A stretch of 64,000 nucleotides of DNA, taken from NCBI GenBank assembly GCA_902782465.1, contig CACZNH010000005.1, forward strand, positions 124,001 to 188,000. The letters are read 5' to 3'. Below the pieces are notes generated by a model. It did not search any database. It was given only the letters and a program-made list of their open reading frames with translations, and had not been told where the DNA came from. The translations under genes were made by a program, and so were the position numbers. The stretch is from an uncultured Bacteroidales bacterium (GTDB taxonomy: Bacteria > Bacteroidota > Bacteroidia > Bacteroidales > Muribaculaceae). Shown in pieces: positions 7,703 through 61,163 of the stretch. Numbering within the stretch: the first letter of the stretch is position 1; each line of letters starts with the position of its first letter.

Positions 7703-7773
7703 AGTTTCTAGGCGTCAGATGGCTGACGCCTAGAAACTAAACCTTAGAACTAAGGACTAAAAACTAAAAACCA
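7703..7773. repeat. Perfect 16-bp hairpin followed by a heptad array
   Basis: AGTTTCTAGGCGTCAG (7703-7718), loop ATGG, and its exact complement (7723-7738). From there 7-nt units of the type ACTAAGG, ACTAAAA, ACTAAAA run to the start codon of the nuclease gene. No core nonamer is present, but the arm ends in the same TAGAAACTAA wording as the arrays near 10.4 and 12.4 kb. It may stabilise or attenuate mRNA within the operon. Confidence 0.75.
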
Positions 7774-7778
7774 AGCAT

Positions 7779-10408: not shown

Positions 10409-10409
10409 A

Positions 10410-10474
10410 AGTGAGAAGTGGGCGGATGCCAACTAGAAACTAAGGACTAAGGACTAAAAACTAAAAAAAACAAA
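10410..10474. repeat. Heptad array with GCGGATGCC core (tolC-macA gap)
   Basis: Left arm AGTGAGAAGTGG, core GCGGATGCC at 10422-10430, then 7-nt units AACTAGA, AACTAAG, GACTAAG, GACTAAA, AACTAAA leading into the A-rich start region of the adaptor gene. Confidence 0.8.
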
Positions 10475-10477
10475 CAT

Positions 10478-11638
10478 ATGAAAAAGGGTAAGAAAATCAT
10501 CTTGGCGCTGGTTGGCCTGCTGTTGGTCGCCGGGATTATCGCCATTGTGAACAAGAAAGGTGGCAATGAGCAAATCAGTTTCCAGACCACCCAAATCGAA
10601 TCTGGCGACATCGCCACCAACATCACAGCAACGGGCACTATCGAGCCGGTCAAGACCGTTGACGTGGGCACGCAGGTGTCGGGTATCGTCAAGCGGCTGT
10701 ATGTGGACTATAACAGCGTGGTCAAGCGTGGACAGATCATCGCCGAACTGGACCGTACCAACCTATTGAGCGACTTGTCAACGGCCCAAGCCCGCCTGAG
10801 AGCAGAGCAGATTGAACTGGATTATCAAAAGAAGAACTACGCACGCTATGCCGAACTCAAGCAGAAGGACCTCGTGAGCCTGCAGGAATATGACGTTGCA
10901 CTCGAGAGTTACCGCAAAGCGCAGGAAAGCGTCAGGATTGCCCAGCAGGATGTTGCCAGGGCCAAAACCAACCTGAGCTATGCCACGGTCTATTCACCCA
11001 TTGACGGCGTGGTTATCGGCAAGTCGGTAGAAGAGGGTCAGACTGTGGCATCGGCCTTCAGCACCCCCTCCATCGTCAAGATTGCCAAGGACTTGACCGA
11101 CATGCAGTGCATCGCCAAGGTGGATGAGGCCGACATCGGCGAGGTACGTGAGGGCCAGCGCGTGACGTTCACCGTCGATGCCTACCCCGACGACGTGTTC
11201 TCGGGTACTGTCAAGCAGGTGCGTCAGAATCCTGTCATCACCAACAATGTAGTCACCTATGAGGTGGTCGTCAGCGCCCCCAATGCCGACCTCAAACTCA
11301 AGCCAGGCCTCACGGCCAGCATCACCATCTACACGCTGGAACGCAGTGGCGTCAAGAGCGTACCATCGGCGACCTTGCGCTTCACGCCCGAGCCCAGCGT
11401 CTTCGGCAACAAGTATGTCATCAAGGACACCACCGCCGAGCACAAGCTGTGGACCCTCGAGGGCAACGTTCTCACTGCCCACAAGGTGGAAATCGGCGTG
11501 ACCGACGGCATCCGCACCGAGATTATCAGCGGCCTGGACGAGGGCACGACGGTCATCCAATCATTTGAGATTGGGGCTGCCACCCAACCTGACAAAAAGG
11601 AGGCTGACAAGAAAGACAAAAAAGATAACAAGAAGTAA
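10478..11638 (+). CDS. macA: MacA-like periplasmic adaptor of a tripartite efflux pump
   Basis: 386 residues with one N-terminal membrane anchor (about 6-25). Barrel-sandwich (lipoyl-like) halves (GTIEPVKTVDVGTQVSGIVKR, about 60-80 given in part, and SPIDGVVIGKSVEEGQTV, about 170-190) flank a coiled-coil hairpin (about 95-160); a beta-barrel and membrane-proximal domain follow. This is the membrane-fusion protein that joins a MacB ABC transporter to TolC. The C-terminus is a short Lys/Asp-rich tail (KKEADKKDKKDNKK) that the family does not need. The stop is 2 nt before the ATPase gene, so the two are probably translationally coupled. The exported substrate is unknown. Confidence 0.9.
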   Translation: MKKGKKIILALVGLLLVAGIIAIVNKKGGNEQISFQTTQIESGDIATNITATGTIEPVKTVDVGTQVSGIVKRLYVDYNSVVKRGQIIAELDRTNLLSDLSTAQARLRAEQIELDYQKKNYARYAELKQKDLVSLQEYDVALESYRKAQESVRIAQQDVARAKTNLSYATVYSPIDGVVIGKSVEEGQTVASAFSTPSIVKIAKDLTDMQCIAKVDEADIGEVREGQRVTFTVDAYPDDVFSGTVKQVRQNPVITNNVVTYEVVVSAPNADLKLKPGLTASITIYTLERSGVKSVPSATLRFTPEPSVFGNKYVIKDTTAEHKLWTLEGNVLTAHKVEIGVTDGIRTEIISGLDEGTTVIQSFEIGAATQPDKKEADKKDKKDNKK

Positions 11639-11640
11639 CC

Positions 11641-12387
11641 ATGGCACAGAAACCAGTCATAGAACTTGAGGGAATACGCCGCGACTTCGTCGTGGGCGAG
11701 GAGACGGTGCATGCCCTGCGAGGGGTCTCCTTCACCATCCACGAGGGTGAGTTCGTCACCATCATGGGCACCTCGGGCTCGGGAAAATCGACCCTGCTCA
11801 ACATCCTGGGTTGCCTGGACACGCCCACTAGCGGCGAATACCGTCTGGACGGCATTCCGGTGCGCACCATGAGCAAGACGCAGCGGGCGGTGCTCAGGAA
11901 CCGTAAAATCGGCTTCGTCTTCCAGAGTTACAACCTGCTGGCCAAGACCACGGCAGTCGAGAACGTGGAACTGCCGCTGATGTACAATAGCGAGGTAGGC
12001 TCCCGCGAGCGCCGCGAACGTGCCGTCACCGCCTTGCAGCGCGTGGGACTGGGCGACCGCCTGAACCACAAGAGCAACCAGATGTCCGGCGGACAGATGC
12101 AACGTGTGGCCATTGCCCGTGCCCTGGTCAACGACCCTGCGGTCATCCTCGCCGACGAGGCAACAGGTAACCTGGACACCCGCACCTCGTTTGAAATCCT
12201 GGTGCTGTTCCAGCAACTGCATGCCGAGGGGCGCACCATCATTTTTGTGACCCACAATCCCGAAATCGCTCAGTATTCCACGCGCACCATCACCTTGAGT
12301 GACGGCAAGCTGCGCGAGGACCGCATGAACGATACCATCCTGAATGCCGCCGACAAGCTGGCAACACTCCCTGTCGAGGAAGAATAA
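11641..12387 (+). CDS. MacB-type ABC transporter ATP-binding subunit
   Basis: 248 residues. Walker A GTSGSGKST (about residues 42-50), Q-loop in FVFQSYNLL, signature MSGGQMQRVAIARAL, Walker B VILADEAT with the catalytic Glu, and H-loop FVTHNPE are all intact. It is a LolD/MacB-class cytoplasmic ATPase energising the permease encoded 72 nt downstream. In many proteobacteria MacB is one polypeptide; here ATPase and permease are separate genes, the usual arrangement in this phylum. Confidence 0.94.
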   Translation: MAQKPVIELEGIRRDFVVGEETVHALRGVSFTIHEGEFVTIMGTSGSGKSTLLNILGCLDTPTSGEYRLDGIPVRTMSKTQRAVLRNRKIGFVFQSYNLLAKTTAVENVELPLMYNSEVGSRERRERAVTALQRVGLGDRLNHKSNQMSGGQMQRVAIARALVNDPAVILADEATGNLDTRTSFEILVLFQQLHAEGRTIIFVTHNPEIAQYSTRTITLSDGKLREDRMNDTILNAADKLATLPVEEE

Positions 12388-12390
12388 TCA

Positions 12391-12458
12391 CAAGTTAGAA
12401 GTGAGGAGTTGGCGGATGCCAACTAAGGACTAAGGACTAGAAACTAAGGACTAAAAAC
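12391..12458. repeat. Heptad array with GCGGATGCC core (ATPase-permease gap)
   Basis: Left units AAGTTAG, AAGTGAG, GAGTTGG; core GCGGATGCC at 12412-12420, with AGTTGGC and GCCAACT as a perfect stem around GGAT; right units AACTAAG, GACTAAG, GACTAGA, AACTAAG, GACTAAA up to the permease ATG. It fills the whole gap between two genes whose products form one complex. Confidence 0.85.
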
Positions 12459-12459
12459 A

Positions 12460-14860: not shown

Positions 14861-14946
14861 TTTTCAGTTCTCAGTTGTCAGTTGTCAGCGGCATCCGCAT
14901 TCAACTGAAGACTGAAAACTGAAGACTGAAAACTGAAAAACTAAAA
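14861..14946. repeat. Heptad array with GGCATCCGC core (kinase-regulator gap)
   Basis: A variant based on ACTGAAG/ACTGAAA units. Left arm CAGTTCTCAGTTGTCAGTTG, core GGCATCCGC at 14890-14898, right arm CAACTGAAGACTGAAAACTG and onward, so the arms are largely complementary. It directly follows the kinase stop and ends at the A-rich leader of the regulator gene. Confidence 0.85.
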
Positions 14947-14950
14947 AGAT

Positions 14951-30878: not shown

Positions 30879-31022
30879 AAGCAAGAGTAAGCTACATTCC
30901 AAATTATTTTTCTTTTTTTTTGTAAAACAACCAAAACTATATACCAACAACCGAAAACACATCATATCCATCATCTAACAGCTATTTGCTAAAAGCTGAT
31001 TGCTAAAATCTAAAGAAACACC

Positions 31023-31172
31023 ACTTTGCCTCATGGCGAAGATAGGCGGCGCCTCGGATATATCCAAATAAATTTGGTATATCTCTCGGCTTGCACTACT
31101 TTGCCTCGCGGCGAAGATAGGCGGCGCCTCGGATATATCCAAATAAATTTGGTATATCTCTCGGCTTGCACT
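31023..31172 (+). repeat. 75-bp direct tandem duplication ending in a promoter
   Basis: Two copies (31023-31097 and 31098-31172) differing at two bases (AT versus GC near the start). Each holds GGCGGCGCC, an inverted repeat GATATATCCAAAT/ATTTGGTATATC with one base missing, and CTCGGCTTGCACTA. Only at the downstream copy does the junction create an intact TATCTTTG; the upstream one reads TACTTTG, one base short. Confidence 0.9.
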
Positions 31173-31179
31173 ATCTTTG
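31149..31179 (+). promoter_or_regulatory. Promoter of NAD kinase, supplied by the repeat
   Basis: TTG at 31149-31151 and TATCTTTG at 31172-31179 with exactly 20 nt between. Six bases separate the box from the ATG at 31186, so the mRNA should have little or no leader. Confidence 0.8.
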
Positions 31180-45898: not shown

Positions 45899-45924
45899 TA
45901 CAGGCCGCCCTCTTGTTCCCCAAA

Positions 45925-45964
45925 GCCTAATGCCTAGAGCCTAGAGCCTAGAGCCTATAACCTA
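45925..45964. repeat. CCTAGAG heptad array without core
   Basis: CCTAATG, CCTAGAG, CCTAGAG, CCTAGAG, CCTATAA, CCTACC: a 7-nt tandem repeat. The minus-strand gene that ends here takes its stop codon (TAG, 45962-45964) from it. Confidence 0.85.
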
Positions 45965-46504
45965 CCTCATCAGATTGCTCATCATCGTGTTCCAGTCCTG
46001 GGCGTCGGCGATGCTCCTGAGCATTCCGCCGTGAGGGGGGAAGGCCAGGCTGTCGTTGAGGGTGTAGGTCACTTGGGGCAGCTTCACGTACAGGCTGAGC
46101 GTGTTCAGCGTCTCACCCGTCTTGTACTGTTCGCCCAGCTGCTTGAAGTCATCAGCATTGATATAGTACAGGCGGTCACCCTTGTTACACAGGTAGATGC
46201 GACTGAAGTCACGTTCGCCCAGCTGCTGGGCGCACTGCAGCAGGCAGCGCGTCACGTCAAAGCGGTCAAAGCTGCGTTCATCGGGCTCGCCCACATTGAA
46301 GGACAGCTCCTTCATGGGATTATACCAGGGCTTCACTACCTCGATGTTGATGCCATTGTTGGCCGGGTCCAAGTTCTTGAGTTCAACGCGCGAAATGACA
46401 GTCCTACCCCCCTTCACAAAGTCCACCGACAGGAAGGCATGAACCGCCACCAGAGCCAGCACGGCTATTATAGCGAGCAACAAAAATTTGTCTTTCCTTG
46501 TCAT
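45962..46504 (-). CDS. Small membrane-anchored protein, unknown
   Basis: 180 residues. One N-terminal helix (about 6-24, FLLLAIIAVLALVAVHAFL), then a soluble domain with VELKNLDPANNGINIEVVKP and GERDFSRIYLCNKGDRLYYI and no motif I recognise. It starts 4 nt inside the end of the S66 peptidase gene (ATGA overlap), so both are translated together; it may assist cell-wall peptide recycling, but that rests on context only. Its stop codon lies in a heptad array. Confidence 0.65.
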   Translation of the reverse strand: MTRKDKFLLLAIIAVLALVAVHAFLSVDFVKGGRTVISRVELKNLDPANNGINIEVVKPWYNPMKELSFNVGEPDERSFDRFDVTRCLLQCAQQLGERDFSRIYLCNKGDRLYYINADDFKQLGEQYKTGETLNTLSLYVKLPQVTYTLNDSLAFPPHGGMLRSIADAQDWNTMMSNLMR

Positions 46505-51119: not shown

Positions 51120-51184
51120 CTGTCGGCGGATTATGGGTATTAGCACCTAAGCGAATCCCATTAATCCGTATAATCCGCCGACAG
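51120..51184. repeat. 15-bp inverted repeat in a 410-nt gene-free stretch
   Basis: CTGTCGGCGGATTAT (51120-51134) and its exact complement (51170-51184), with further pairing (GGGTATTAG/CTAA...CCCAT) in the loop. A short GCAGATGCC-ACTAGAAACT fragment like the heptad arrays follows at 51198-51217. No gene is seen in 50953-51363. Confidence 0.8.
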
Positions 51185-51291
51185 AAAAGAAACGAGGGCA
51201 GATGCCGACTAGAAACTGTTAATATTGGGGTGTTGTGGTTAAATTTGGTCAAATTCGGGGAAAACGGCACCTTATTTTAAAAGATTATGAG

Positions 51292-54930: not shown

Positions 54931-54933
54931 AAA

Positions 54934-55018
54934 GGCTTTAGGTATTTAGGTTTTAGGCATTAGCAGGCAACTGCCTCCAAATCCTAAAGCCTAAAAACCT
55001 ATAACCTAAAAACCTACA
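54934..55018. repeat. CCTAAAG/CCTAAAA heptad array, hairpin type
   Basis: Left units GGCTTTA, GGTATTTA, GGTTTTA, GGCATTA; centre AGGCAACTGCCT; right units CCTAAAG, CCTAAAA, ACCTATA, ACCTAAA. It fills the gap between the DUF2723 and deacetylase genes. The GCGGATGCC nonamer is absent. Confidence 0.85.
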
Positions 55019-55026
55019 GTTTAGAG

Positions 55027-56628: not shown

Positions 56629-57519
56629 ATGAAAAAAAGAAGATTTAGCACAACTGTTTTTATTGCGATGATGCTGTGTGTGGCCATGAGCTTCACAGCA
56701 TGCGGCAACAAGGTGAATTCGTCAACTGCCGTTGAAGAGACTGAACCCGATTCCAGATTTGCTGACATTGATTCGTTGGCCGAGTTCATGACCCAGCAAT
56801 TTACCGAGAATGCCACTCCCAGTAATCTCGAGTCCAACTATCAAGCCTGCTCTGACGCAATGATGTCCCATTGGGCATTAAGTCACAAGGGCGAAGATGA
56901 AAACGCGATGACAGATATTGTGTTCAATGAGTTAAAGGACGTGGCCGGAAAATTGGCCGAGGGAAGTACAGTTGACATGATGAGAAGCGGTGAAATCAAC
57001 TGCGCCGTTGCACAATATCACACTGCCAAGGTCTATTGTGATGAGAATCGGGGGAATCCCCTCTATCAGGCCGAGATGAGTGACTGGCTACAGCTTGAAA
57101 ATGAGCTGTCAAACTTCTATGGAGAACTGGCTACATTGGCCAACTGGGATGGTACCATCTCCAAAGTCATCGCAAGTGGTTCGCGTGTTTTTGTGGCCGA
57201 GAGCCGTGATGATGACTATAGCCAACTCAAGAAGGGCGGCAACTTTGCCGGCAGCGATGACATGACGATTGCCGAGGCCCGCGCTAACCTGATCCAGGAG
57301 TTGGAAGATGCCAAGAGCCTGGAGGACGACCTGGTGGATGACCCCAACTTTAAGAAAACCCTTCAGAGCATGCGCGAGCGTGCCGACCGCATCGTTCCCC
57401 TGCTTGACGAGTGGCTTGCTGCACGTGCCGAACTGGGCAATGCCGAAGCCATTCCCGAAGCCCATACTGCCCATTTCATCGAAAAAATGGGCCAACAAAT
57501 CATGAAAATGATTGAATAA
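56629..57519 (+). CDS. Lipoprotein of an unnamed family (paralogue B)
   Basis: 296 residues from ATG 56629. Signal MKKRRFSTTVFIAMMLCVAM with lipobox FTAC. Aligns by eye with the protein at 40534-41451 from end to end: ADIDSLAEFMTQQF, MMSHWALSHKGED, VDMMRSGEINCAVAQYHTAK, ELATLANWDGTISKV, EARANLIQELEDAKSLE and IPEAHTAHFIEKMGQQIMKM. Mostly helical and acidic. Unknown family; two diverged copies 15 kb apart, each with its own promoter. It converges on the metallophosphoesterase with a heptad array between. Confidence 0.75.
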   Translation: MKKRRFSTTVFIAMMLCVAMSFTACGNKVNSSTAVEETEPDSRFADIDSLAEFMTQQFTENATPSNLESNYQACSDAMMSHWALSHKGEDENAMTDIVFNELKDVAGKLAEGSTVDMMRSGEINCAVAQYHTAKVYCDENRGNPLYQAEMSDWLQLENELSNFYGELATLANWDGTISKVIASGSRVFVAESRDDDYSQLKKGGNFAGSDDMTIAEARANLIQELEDAKSLEDDLVDDPNFKKTLQSMRERADRIVPLLDEWLAARAELGNAEAIPEAHTAHFIEKMGQQIMKMIE

Positions 57520-57520
57520 G

Positions 57521-57603
57521 GGTTTAGGCGTTAGGCGTTAGGCATTAGGTGGCATCCGCATCCCTAAAGCCTAAAACCTAAAACCTTAAACCTAAAGCCT
57601 AAT
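57521..57603. repeat. Heptad array with GGCATCCGC core between convergent genes
   Basis: Left units GGTTTAG, GCGTTAG, GCGTTAG, GCATTAG; core GGCATCCGC at 57551-57559; right units CCTAAAG, CCTAAAA, CCTAAAA, CCTTAAA, CCTAAAG. The minus-strand phosphoesterase ends inside it (stop TAG at 57592-57594), while the plus-strand gene stops at its edge. Confidence 0.9.
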
Positions 57604-59064: not shown

Positions 59065-59101
59065 AGTCATGCGGGTTATATGCATATATCGTGCCAAGTT
59101 A

Positions 59102-59180
59102 GTTTTTAGTTGTCAGTCCTTAGTCCTTAGTCCTTAGTTGGCATCCGCACTTCTAACTTCTAACTTCTAACTCCTAACTA
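59102..59180. repeat. Heptad array with GGCATCCGC core between two minus-strand genes
   Basis: TTAGTCC units, core GGCATCCGC at 59140-59148, then ACTTCTA units. Read on the minus strand this is the same order as at 10.4 and 12.4 kb (TAGAAGT units, GCGGATGCC, ACTAAGG units), so orientation follows the genes. The aroA stop codon (TAG, 59174-59176) lies in it. Confidence 0.88.
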
Positions 59181-60394
59181 ATGTGAAATCCTGCCTGCTC
59201 CAGATGGTTCCAGAATGAGGGGTAGGATTTGGTAACCACTTCGGCGTTGTTGATGACCAGTCCGGGGAAACGCACCGCAGCGGGAGCAAAAGCCATCGCC
59301 ATACGGTGGTCGTCGTGGGTGTCGATGACGGGAGCGGTTGTGACGGGCACTTTCTCGCCATACCACGAGATGGCATCGTCGCCCTCGATGGTCAGGACAT
59401 AGCCCAAGCGTCGCAATCCTTCGGCAAGGGCCGCGATGCGGTCACTCTCCTTGAGGCGCAGCGTGCGTACGCCCGTCATGCGGAACGAGCGTTCCAGCAG
59501 ACACAGCAGCACCGCCCACGACAGAACGAGGTCGGGCGTGGCGCTCATGTCGGCGAACGCCGAGCAGCAGCACCCGATGAAATGGCTCGTATCAAGCGTC
59601 GCTCCATGGCTGTCAAAACGCGTCTCGATGCCCAGTTGCCGCCCCAAATCCACCAGGCGGGCATCACCCTGGATGCTATGGGGAGCAAGCCCTAAAAGCG
59701 TGAGTTGGGACTGCGGGAGCAAGGCCGCCAGGGCATACCATGGCGCTGCGGCACTCCAGTCGGCCTCGACGAGGTAATTATCTGCAACATAACCGCCAGC
59801 GACGGTGATCAGGTCACCCGCGATGTCCACACTGGCGCCCATATCGTTCATCACGCTGGCAGTCATGTGGATATAGGGCCAGGAAACGATGTCGCCCGTG
59901 AGACGGATGCTGCCGCCACCCAGTTTGGGCAGAATCATCATCACTGCCGAGATGAATTGCGAACTCACGCCGCCCGGCATGGTGATGTCGCCGCCGTGCA
60001 TCGCGGTACCAGATACCCTCAACGGGGGAAAACCCTCCTGCCCCATATATTTGATATTTGCTCCCAATTCACGCAGCGCATCCACCAGGGGACCGATAGG
60101 CCGCTGGCGCATGCGTTCATTTCCGTCAATGACGACGGTAACGCCCTCGCGTGTAGCAAAATAAGCCGTCAGGAACCGCATCGCAGTCCCCGCCGCCCCC
60201 ACGTTGATGTTGCCACTGCCACGGGCCAGTGCATCAACCATAACGGCAGTGTCGTCACAACAGGCTGGCTGCAGCACTAGCGGGCCGCCATCGCACAACG
60301 CGGCAATGACAAGGGCACGGTTGCTGATGCTCTTGGACTTGGGTAGTACGATGGTGCCGTGAAGGCTGTCAGGAGCCGAAAGTCGTAGATTCAT
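59174..60394 (-). CDS. aroA: 3-phosphoshikimate 1-carboxyvinyltransferase (EPSP synthase)
   Basis: 406 residues. Substrate-binding motifs KSKSISNRALVIAAL, GNERMRQRPIGPLVDALREL (in part), the Gly-rich GAAGTAMRFLTAYFATREG region and LRLKESDRIAAL, THDDHRMAMAFA near the C-terminus are intact. It joins phosphoenolpyruvate to shikimate 3-phosphate in aromatic amino acid synthesis. Its -7 box ends 4 nt before the ATG, so the mRNA is probably leaderless. Only its last codons touch the heptad array. Confidence 0.95.
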   Translation of the reverse strand: MNLRLSAPDSLHGTIVLPKSKSISNRALVIAALCDGGPLVLQPACCDDTAVMVDALARGSGNINVGAAGTAMRFLTAYFATREGVTVVIDGNERMRQRPIGPLVDALRELGANIKYMGQEGFPPLRVSGTAMHGGDITMPGGVSSQFISAVMMILPKLGGGSIRLTGDIVSWPYIHMTASVMNDMGASVDIAGDLITVAGGYVADNYLVEADWSAAAPWYALAALLPQSQLTLLGLAPHSIQGDARLVDLGRQLGIETRFDSHGATLDTSHFIGCCCSAFADMSATPDLVLSWAVLLCLLERSFRMTGVRTLRLKESDRIAALAEGLRRLGYVLTIEGDDAISWYGEKVPVTTAPVIDTHDDHRMAMAFAPAAVRFPGLVINNAEVVTKSYPSFWNHLEQAGFHIS

Positions 60395-60435: not shown

Positions 60436-60463
60436 CACCCGATTTAGCAATGGAAATAGCTTA

Positions 60464-60566
60464 AAGAGTTAGAAGTTAGAAATTAGGAGTTAGAAGTTAG
60501 AAGTTAGAAGTGCGGATGCCAGCTAAGGACTAAAAACTAAGGACTAAAACTAAGGACTAAAAACTG
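60464..60566. repeat. Longest heptad array, GCGGATGCC core, in the cvpA leader
   Basis: Left units AGTTAGA repeated six times with small changes; core GCGGATGCC at 60512-60520; right units AGCTAAG, GACTAAA, AACTAAG, GACTAAA, ACTAAGG, ACTAAAA, up to the start codon. Confidence 0.9.
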
Positions 60567-60569
60567 AAC

Positions 60570-61145
60570 ATGACACTCATTGACGCCATACTGATACTGA
60601 TAGTGCTCGGTGGCATCGTGCTGGGCTATCGCAAGGGCCTGGTGGGCCAGCTGTCGTCGCTCATCTCGTGGGCGGCAGCCATCCTGCTGTGCTACCATTG
60701 CAGCGACTTTGCCCATGACCTGTTTCTTGCGTTGGTTCCCAGCGCGGCGCAGTGGCCGCTGGCGAGCATCACTGTCAGGACGGTGTCGGCAGCGTTCATG
60801 TTCCTCATTGTGATGGTGGCAGTCCGATTGGTGCTGCGCGTTTTCAAGGGGACGCTGAAGGCAGCCAAACTGGGCTTTATCGACAAGTTGGGCGGCTCGC
60901 TGCTGTTCATGTTCAAGTATGCCTTTGTCGTGAGTGTCGCCCTCAATCTGCTGTATGCCATCAATCCCGACATGGAAACCTTCGGGACCATGCACATGAT
61001 GAAGAATAAGCCCTATGAGCTCACACTTGATCTGATGCCGACCGTCCTAGGCAGCGACAAGATGCCCAGCGACTCGCTCAAGCTCTACCGTGACCTCATC
61101 GAGCCCATCCCCACTGAAACTCCCACCCTAAAGCCTAACACCTAA
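60570..61145 (+). CDS. CvpA-family membrane protein
   Basis: 191 residues. Four membrane helices (about 4-22, 30-48, 62-86, 104-124) and the family's N-terminal pattern LIDAILILIVLGGIVLGYRKG. CvpA is named for a role in colicin V export and has since been linked to envelope stress; its mechanism is not settled. The last residues (TLKPNT) and the stop are encoded by a CCTAAAG heptad array, so the C-terminus may have been altered by that array. The MATE gene follows 18 nt later. Confidence 0.85.
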   Translation: MTLIDAILILIVLGGIVLGYRKGLVGQLSSLISWAAAILLCYHCSDFAHDLFLALVPSAAQWPLASITVRTVSAAFMFLIVMVAVRLVLRVFKGTLKAAKLGFIDKLGGSLLFMFKYAFVVSVALNLLYAINPDMETFGTMHMMKNKPYELTLDLMPTVLGSDKMPSDSLKLYRDLIEPIPTETPTLKPNT

Positions 61146-61159
61146 AGCCTAAAGCCTTA
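61127..61159. repeat. CCTAAAG heptad array overlapping the cvpA 3' end
   Basis: CCTAAAG, CCTAACA, CCTAAAG, CCTAAAG, CCTTAA. It begins inside the coding sequence, supplies the stop codon TAA and runs to just before the MATE start codon. Confidence 0.88.
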
Positions 61160-61163
61160 ATAG

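Follow-up and report, generated by a model that had tools for sequence, protein, structure and literature searches.

Tandem repeats of 7-nt words (heptads) fill intergenic gaps in the window, the whole 64,000-nt stretch of DNA analyzed here, which is part of a 3.13 Mb Bacteroidales draft genome. Sequence comparison indicates that these arrays are probably the arms of small mobile elements carrying an IVP gene (23S_rRNA_IVP, PF05635/TIGR02436), together with copies of the element without the gene. Kin of the arrays bracket IVP genes at other sites of this genome as well as across its genus and other phyla, and we are highly confident that IVP genes are bracketed by period-7 arms. Action of the elements at the RNA level is a more tentative part of this reading, to which we give slightly less than even chances.

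Heptad arrays in the window and the genome

The original prediction had listed at least eleven gaps with tandem heptads, six exact copies of the nonamer GCGGATGCC (hereafter the core), and a seventh, variant core. Heptads were found by TRF or a period-7 scan of the window in ten of these gaps, but the gap at 51.2 kb (51163..51206, +) contained a short 9-nt repeat (TTAATCCGT ATAATCCGC) beside the variant core and no heptads. This repeat resembles the arms of the GxxExxY elements described below (compare L429). The six exact cores were confirmed, three on the plus strand (10422, 12412, and 60512) and three on the minus strand (14890, 57551, and 59140), as was the variant, which reads GCAGATGCC (51198-51206).

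The putative solo elements had an arm on each side of the core. Between co-directional genes, the element at 10409..10477 (+; fold z -1.8) joined a short AGTGAGA-like arm, the core (10422-10430), and an ACTAAGG arm. An AGTTAGA arm was combined with an ACTAAGG arm in the ABC ATPase/permease gap (12388..12459, +; core 12412-12420; fold z -3.1), at 59098..59183 (-; core 59140-59148; fold z -1.8), and 5' of the start codon of a divergent gene (60462..60566, +; core 60512-60520; fold z -0.6). The remaining two combined TTGTCAG with ACTGAAG arms (14861..14950, -; core 14890-14898; fold z -6.2) and TTAGGCG with CCTAAAA arms (57516..57603, -; core 57551-57559; fold z -3.2). The arrays without a core, which are given here without strand, included inverted AGGTTTT/AAAACCTA arms of mixed 7-8 nt (54931..55026; fold z -5.3) and two one-armed arrays, AGCCTAG (45919..45966) and CCTAAAG 5' of a start codon (61127..61161). 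At 7703..7774 (fold z -7.4), a hairpin with a long perfect stem (TTTCTAGGCGTCAG/CTGACGCCTAGAAA, 7703-7738) adjoined a heptad array (7743-7774), also without the core. Elsewhere in the window, a tandem 75-nt repeat (31019-31179; 2.1 copies, 95 percent matches) was located in an intergenic-looking region.

Seven regions of the window passed the strict period-7 scan, whereas none did in 30 first-order Markov sequences, so that the random-sequence control proposed with the original prediction came out in its favor and a chance origin of the arrays was rejected. When periods 4-16 were scanned in the window, only 7 and its double, 14, scored. The strict scan was also applied to a 464 kb sample consisting of the window and twenty 20-kb stretches of the genome; it returned 63 intergenic period-7 arrays versus two "coding" ones. 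Of the latter, the array at 61127 overlaps the end of a gene that was called mechanically. Other periods were represented by 0-3 intergenic arrays each (periods 5, 6, 8, 10, and 11), 7 arrays (period 9), and 51 arrays (period 14). Among gaps of at least 20 nt, arrays were present in 45 of 166 co-directional, 6 of 34 convergent, and 2 of 34 divergent gaps. The words found in this single genome included CCTAAAR, ACTGAAR, ACTAAGG, AGTTAGA, ACTTAAA, and others, in line with the prediction that the heptad differs between sites; array words were also common to several sites.

RNA folding z-scores were obtained for eight gaps (7.7, 10.4, 12.4, 14.9, 54.9, 57.5, 59.1, and 60.5 kb). Five of them folded strongly (z -3 to -7), as would be expected of ordinary terminators or mRNA-stability hairpins enlarged by slippage, but the other three folded at z -1.8 or weaker, arrays favor co-directional gaps, where termination would often be harmful, and the period of 7 would be left unexplained. 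Rfam at gathering scores matched two tRNAs only in the whole window and none of the arrays, and a known RNA family was rejected for them on this ground. An origin as terminators or stability hairpins is the least credible of the explanations weighed here.

The core and the orthologous gaps

The core occurred 203 times in the genome, against 26 occurrences of the reversed control. Three further exact cores in the window (11507, 40120, and 42584), absent from the list in the original prediction, had no adjoining array. In the 464 kb sample, 43 of 65 array rows had no exact core within 30 nt, and 19 of 42 cores adjoined heptads as judged by eye; some of the remaining cores were in coding sequence and some were beside 8-10-nt repeats. 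The core was also found joined to 8-9-nt arrays. Since many arrays lack the core and many cores lack heptads, core and heptads are overlapping but separate things, and the idea of a family defined by its core was abandoned.

Left-right pairing was scored for 30 cores flanked by a heptad arm, a sample in part chosen because of the core. Pairing averaged 25.4 within sites versus 20.6 between sites, a value reached in 69 of 5,000 shuffles, and the arm's own partner was the best match at one site. Arms from different word families were combined at 9 of the 30 sites (by eye), and one mixed site joined a CTTAGCG arm to a heptad arm. The complementary arms of the original prediction are therefore partly present but had been overstated, the pairing at core sites being weak and three of eight folds having z of -1.8 or weaker; given the weak pairing and mixed arms, a joint rewriting of both arms at core sites is not supported either. 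In L177 and, in this genome, L432, the core was preceded by a stop codon, that of IVP in the former and of a GxxExxY gene in the latter, and was followed by the right arm; in L155, L187, and L188 it was inside the left flank. Within 200 nt of IVP it was found at one of the four loci of this genome (L155 only). The core is thus no fixed part of the element, and it may serve as a joint for the exchange of arms.

Comparison of orthologous gaps for empty sites, as had been suggested, showed some relatives to be empty and others filled. For the ABC transporter gap (12388-12459 here), 11 relatives were compared, and three more came from a one-strand search. AGTTAG-type heptads without the core were present in five of the 11 (two one-armed, three with a different middle), GATTAGA-type heptads in one, and TTTAGGC with ACTGAAA arms in one. 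Two others had unrelated hairpins and no arrays, and one had 50 nt without repeats; in the remaining genome, G005 (L127), TTAGTGG heptads were followed by an IVP reading frame inside the transporter operon. The gap was 32, 21, and 3 nt long in the three further relatives. In G020 (L122), the ABC-permease gap held a GAGACGCAAAATCTTGCGTCTC hairpin, another dispersed-looking element where relatives have heptads.

The gap orthologous to that at 10.4 kb measured 26-99 nt in eight relatives, two with other heptads and six without an array. At 14.9 kb it was 0-2 nt in all five relatives, three of which had, in our reading, the genes overlapping as ATGA, and at 60.5 kb the gaps of four relatives were shorter and the array was absent. 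At 59.1 kb, four of six relatives had a gap of 0-1 nt, and in the other two the same GTGCCAA preceded CGCTAAG-type repeats that flanked this very core. In the truA gap, four genomes (L145, L149, L152, and L178) carried IVP together with heptads. In the sixteen other genomes this gap held heptads alone (one), CGCTAAG hairpins (three), a short empty gap (one), a CTAGA-type 9-nt array (eight same-genus species; L399, L402-L404, L406, and L409-L411), CTATAG 9-mers (this genome), 9-mers after a GxxExxY-like frame (one), or another sequence (one). Likewise, IVP was found in the yidC gap of four genomes (L144, L148, L153, and L155), and pieces of GxxExxY (PDDEXK_3) proteins were found there in several others. 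No clear target-site duplication was seen by eye at the junctions of two gaps.

Because arrays are present or absent at orthologous gaps, they are not ordinary conserved leaders, an explanation that was rejected as these gaps are empty or filled with unrelated arrays. The same pattern supports the dispersed family with changing heptads of the original prediction. It also bears on the proposal that the arrays exert translational or post-transcriptional control on downstream genes, as proposed for TAACTGA heptamers (MacGregor, 2015). Arms do reach up to a start codon at several sites in the window (12.4, 14.9, 60.5, and 61.1 kb), and heptamer repeats 5' of starts are described for other bacteria (PMC4679880). 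However, orthologous genes have no array or an unrelated one, so that any array-based control is not conserved, and arrays were also present in the 6 of 34 convergent gaps. We consider this explanation very unlikely.

IVP genes and their flanks

The IVP reading frame in G005 was the clue linking the arrays to PF05635, a family of four-helix bundles akin to Avd/S23. Four IVP proteins matched PF05635 with 120-148 bits (cut-off 33.8) and TIGR02436 with 118-143 bits (cut-off 24), and related solved structures were 2gsc and 2rld. In Pfam and NCBIfam scans, IVP belonged to no transposase family. Phage cargo was rejected as an explanation, one IVP protein having no match in 50,697 phage records. Of 41 same-genus genomes, 37 had a PF05635 match, which exceeded the cut-off in 35 of them, and none of 14 control genomes had one; this genome had four PF05635 rows, one with an internal stop.

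We fetched 70 IVP loci of the genus, 30 by automatic choice and 40 hand-picked from a list, of which 68 were usable. In the strict scan, heptads were present on both sides in 31 of the 70 loci, on one side in 25, and on neither in 14, several of which showed inverted arms with other periods by eye (L146, L150, L151, L166, L183, and L196). A looser test of the 68 usable loci gave period 7 on both sides in 38, on one side in 17, and on neither in 13. The same test of 28 control genes of this genome (90-160 aa) gave period 7 on both sides in one and on one side in eight, arrays being common in this genome. An inverted-arm score above 31 was reached by 53 of the 68 genus loci, 39 of 73 loci from named genomes, and none of the 28 control genes.

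The named-genome loci came from a scan with an alignment of fourteen IVP proteins. The best 80 of 589 loci were taken, which biases the sample toward close proteins; 73 were usable, and two of the 80 (L214 and L215) repeat loci of the genus set. Their titles covered Bacteroidota, Clostridia, Selenomonadales, Treponema, Kiritimatiellae, Verrucomicrobia, Lentisphaerae, Planctomycetes, Proteobacteria, Nitrospirae, Acidobacteria, Chloroflexi-type Thermomicrobiales, and several candidate phyla. Period 7 was found in 64 of the 146 flanks, against 0.2 after shuffling. Period 14 (2 x 7) was found in 43 flanks, period 8 in 18, period 15 in 4, period 9 in 1, and the rest in 0-1 each. With Bacteroidota removed, period 7 remained in 55 of 116 flanks and in at least one flank of 37 of 58 loci. 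The signal lay close to the gene, with period-7 windows in 67 of 150 cases at 0-130 nt from IVP, 7 of 148 at 130-260 nt, and 1-6 of 141-147 in each bin beyond 260 nt. In addition, opposite arms matched each other although words varied among loci: the match exceeded the 99th percentile of cross pairs for 39 of the 73 loci, and in 37 loci the own opposite arm was the best of all 73; the mean was reached in 0 of 5,000 permutations. In 30 of the 73 named loci, the test applied detected no period-7 flank. According to PMC5524665, a four helix bundle gene separates the guanylate kinase gene from that for nicotinate-nucleotide adenylyltransferase in both genomes of Flavobacterium columnare.

Twelve plasmid IVP loci, most of them cyanobacterial, were hand-picked from 25 listed, and 10 had a period-7 flank, 7 of them on both sides. 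On these plasmids IVP occupied a gap from nrdB to nrdA and, at two loci, a gap from cas6 to cas4. The latter two loci (L435 and L436), with IVP and heptads, belong to cyanobacterial plasmids of different genera, and in L435 the identical A-rich word was present on both flanks, not inverted. A figure legend in a survey of CRISPR-linked proteins lists 23S rRNA IVP (PMC10910872).

GxxExxY genes represented a second gene type, and two of their proteins were confirmed as PF13366. Those of L428, L429, L431-L433, and L446-L451 were located in gene gaps between inverted arms of 8-9 nt words. Eleven GxxExxY loci (five same-genus, six plasmid), scored at the same threshold as the IVP flanks, had period 7 in none of 22 flanks, period 8 in 2, and period 9 in 5, which suggests, in a small sample, that the period depends on the gene family. 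GxxExxY genes with 8-9 nt arms may form a second class of elements parallel to that with IVP. When the fetched loci were searched for GxxExxY genes by motif, none was found, and a broader motif returned fragments.

The presence of IVP was also compared with array density. No arrays were found in 310 kb from five genomes of the genus that lack a clear IVP gene (G011, G012, G028, and G061 with no PF05635 row and G025 with one weak row), and 35 arrays were found in 665 kb from fourteen IVP-bearing ones, some of this sequence having been chosen for synteny with the window; as these genomes are related, the two samples are not independent. G025, with no arrays in 80 kb, and G024 were similarly close to this genome (yidC, 80 and 81 percent, respectively). 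A small difference was seen across 20 further families of the order, with five arrays in 295 kb of 13 genomes with IVP versus one in 210 kb of 7 genomes without.

These data bear on the order of events. The arrays could have come first, as slippage-prone or regulatory repeats with a different origin, and IVP would then be a passenger inserting in the hairpin loops of arrays, much as rRNA intervening sequences are placed in rRNA hairpins. Arrays without IVP are indeed far more numerous than IVP genes (400 kb of the genome contained 48 merged arrays, against the four IVP rows genome-wide), and 23S rRNA intervening sequences sit in helices 9, 25, and 45 (PMC4990558). On the other hand, no arrays were present in the same-genus genomes sampled that lack a clear IVP gene, and IVP loci of many phyla have locus-specific matching arms, which would have to be in place beforehand at every site that a passenger enters. 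We regard this order as unlikely, and prefer the arrays as arms of an element that carries IVP.

The proposed element and known systems

A complete element of this kind would consist of a tandem-word arm, one short IVP gene, and an inverted tandem-word arm, and would be located in a short gap between two genes, mostly within one operon. Most copies in this genome would lack the gene, and their middle in the genus would often be GCGGATGCC. IVP may be the element's own protein, acting in trans on the copies without it and recognizing the 7-nt spacing, not the sequence. The arms would lengthen and change through slippage and exchange between copies. Slippage in 7-nt steps together with exchange would account for changing words but not for a period of 7 kept across phyla, which would follow from a protein reading the spacing. 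Co-directional gaps may be favored because neither coding sequence nor promoter is broken there. If the arms pair in the transcript, RNase III may excise the resulting hairpin, as it does with rRNA intervening sequences.

A wider reading, which we think doubtful, would be a bacteria-wide mobile class without a known transposase, in which a four-helix protein reads a 7-nt spacing and not the sequence, so that every copy could have a word of its own on its two matching arms, a PD-(D/E)XK (GxxExxY) class uses 8-9 nt, and many bacterial heptamer arrays, such as those of cyanobacteria and Beggiatoaceae, are remains. If the proposed element is real, heptamer arrays reported without a mechanism would gain an origin, and IVP/S23 would, outside rRNA, become a marker for small elements that are widespread in operon gaps. 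A link between IVP and heptad arrays was not found described in the open-licence PubMed Central literature, preprints excluded.

Recognition of a constant period irrespective of the word would be unusual, with no obvious parallel known among mobile elements. REPIN-RAYT systems have a few gene copies and hundreds of short intergenic palindromic copies without a gene; RAYT is a tyrosine transposase, and the REP words are fixed. Few genes and many gene-less copies are also found here, but IVP matched no transposase family in the scans and the words vary. The short tandemly repeated repetitive (STRR) heptamers of cyanobacteria form arrays between genes. Since IVP genes on cyanobacterial plasmids have heptad flanks, we infer that STRR may be linked to IVP.

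TAACTGA repeats of Beggiatoaceae, Cyanobacteria, and some Bacteroidetes are likewise intergenic heptamer arrays, often 5' of starts, with indels in 7-nt steps between close strains, and both a mobile element and a repeat-binding protein were considered for them (MacGregor, 2015; PMC4679880). The present arrays share with TAACTGA and STRR the tandem intergenic heptamers, but not a single defined word: TAACTGA is one word, whereas many occur here, and the parts of PMC4679880 consulted describe neither a two-armed plan nor an IVP gene, with "four helix" and "intervening" occurring zero times in its main text.

Avd, the accessory protein of diversity-generating retroelements, is a distant relative of IVP, a homology stated in PMC10053308. 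Avd models (bAvd and DivGenRetAVD) matched the IVP proteins below their cut-offs, an Avd model reaching 32-43.5 bits in three of the four (cut-off 80), and on this count the loci do not qualify as diversity-generating retroelements.

The closest likeness in protein family is to the intervening sequences of rRNA in Coxiella and Leptospira, in which an S23/IVP frame is located between complementary ends; their presence is sporadic, and they are suspected to be mobile, are cut out by RNase III, and have a mobility that is unexplained (PMC4990558). Complementary borders around IVP were also found here, as judged from the inverted-arm scores. In contrast to rRNA intervening sequences, which lie inside 16S or 23S rRNA genes, the elements described here lie in gaps between protein genes, have arms of tandem words with a period of 7, and include numerous gene-less copies. 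If the proposed element is real, the old question of the role of the S23 protein in intervening sequences would become directly testable.
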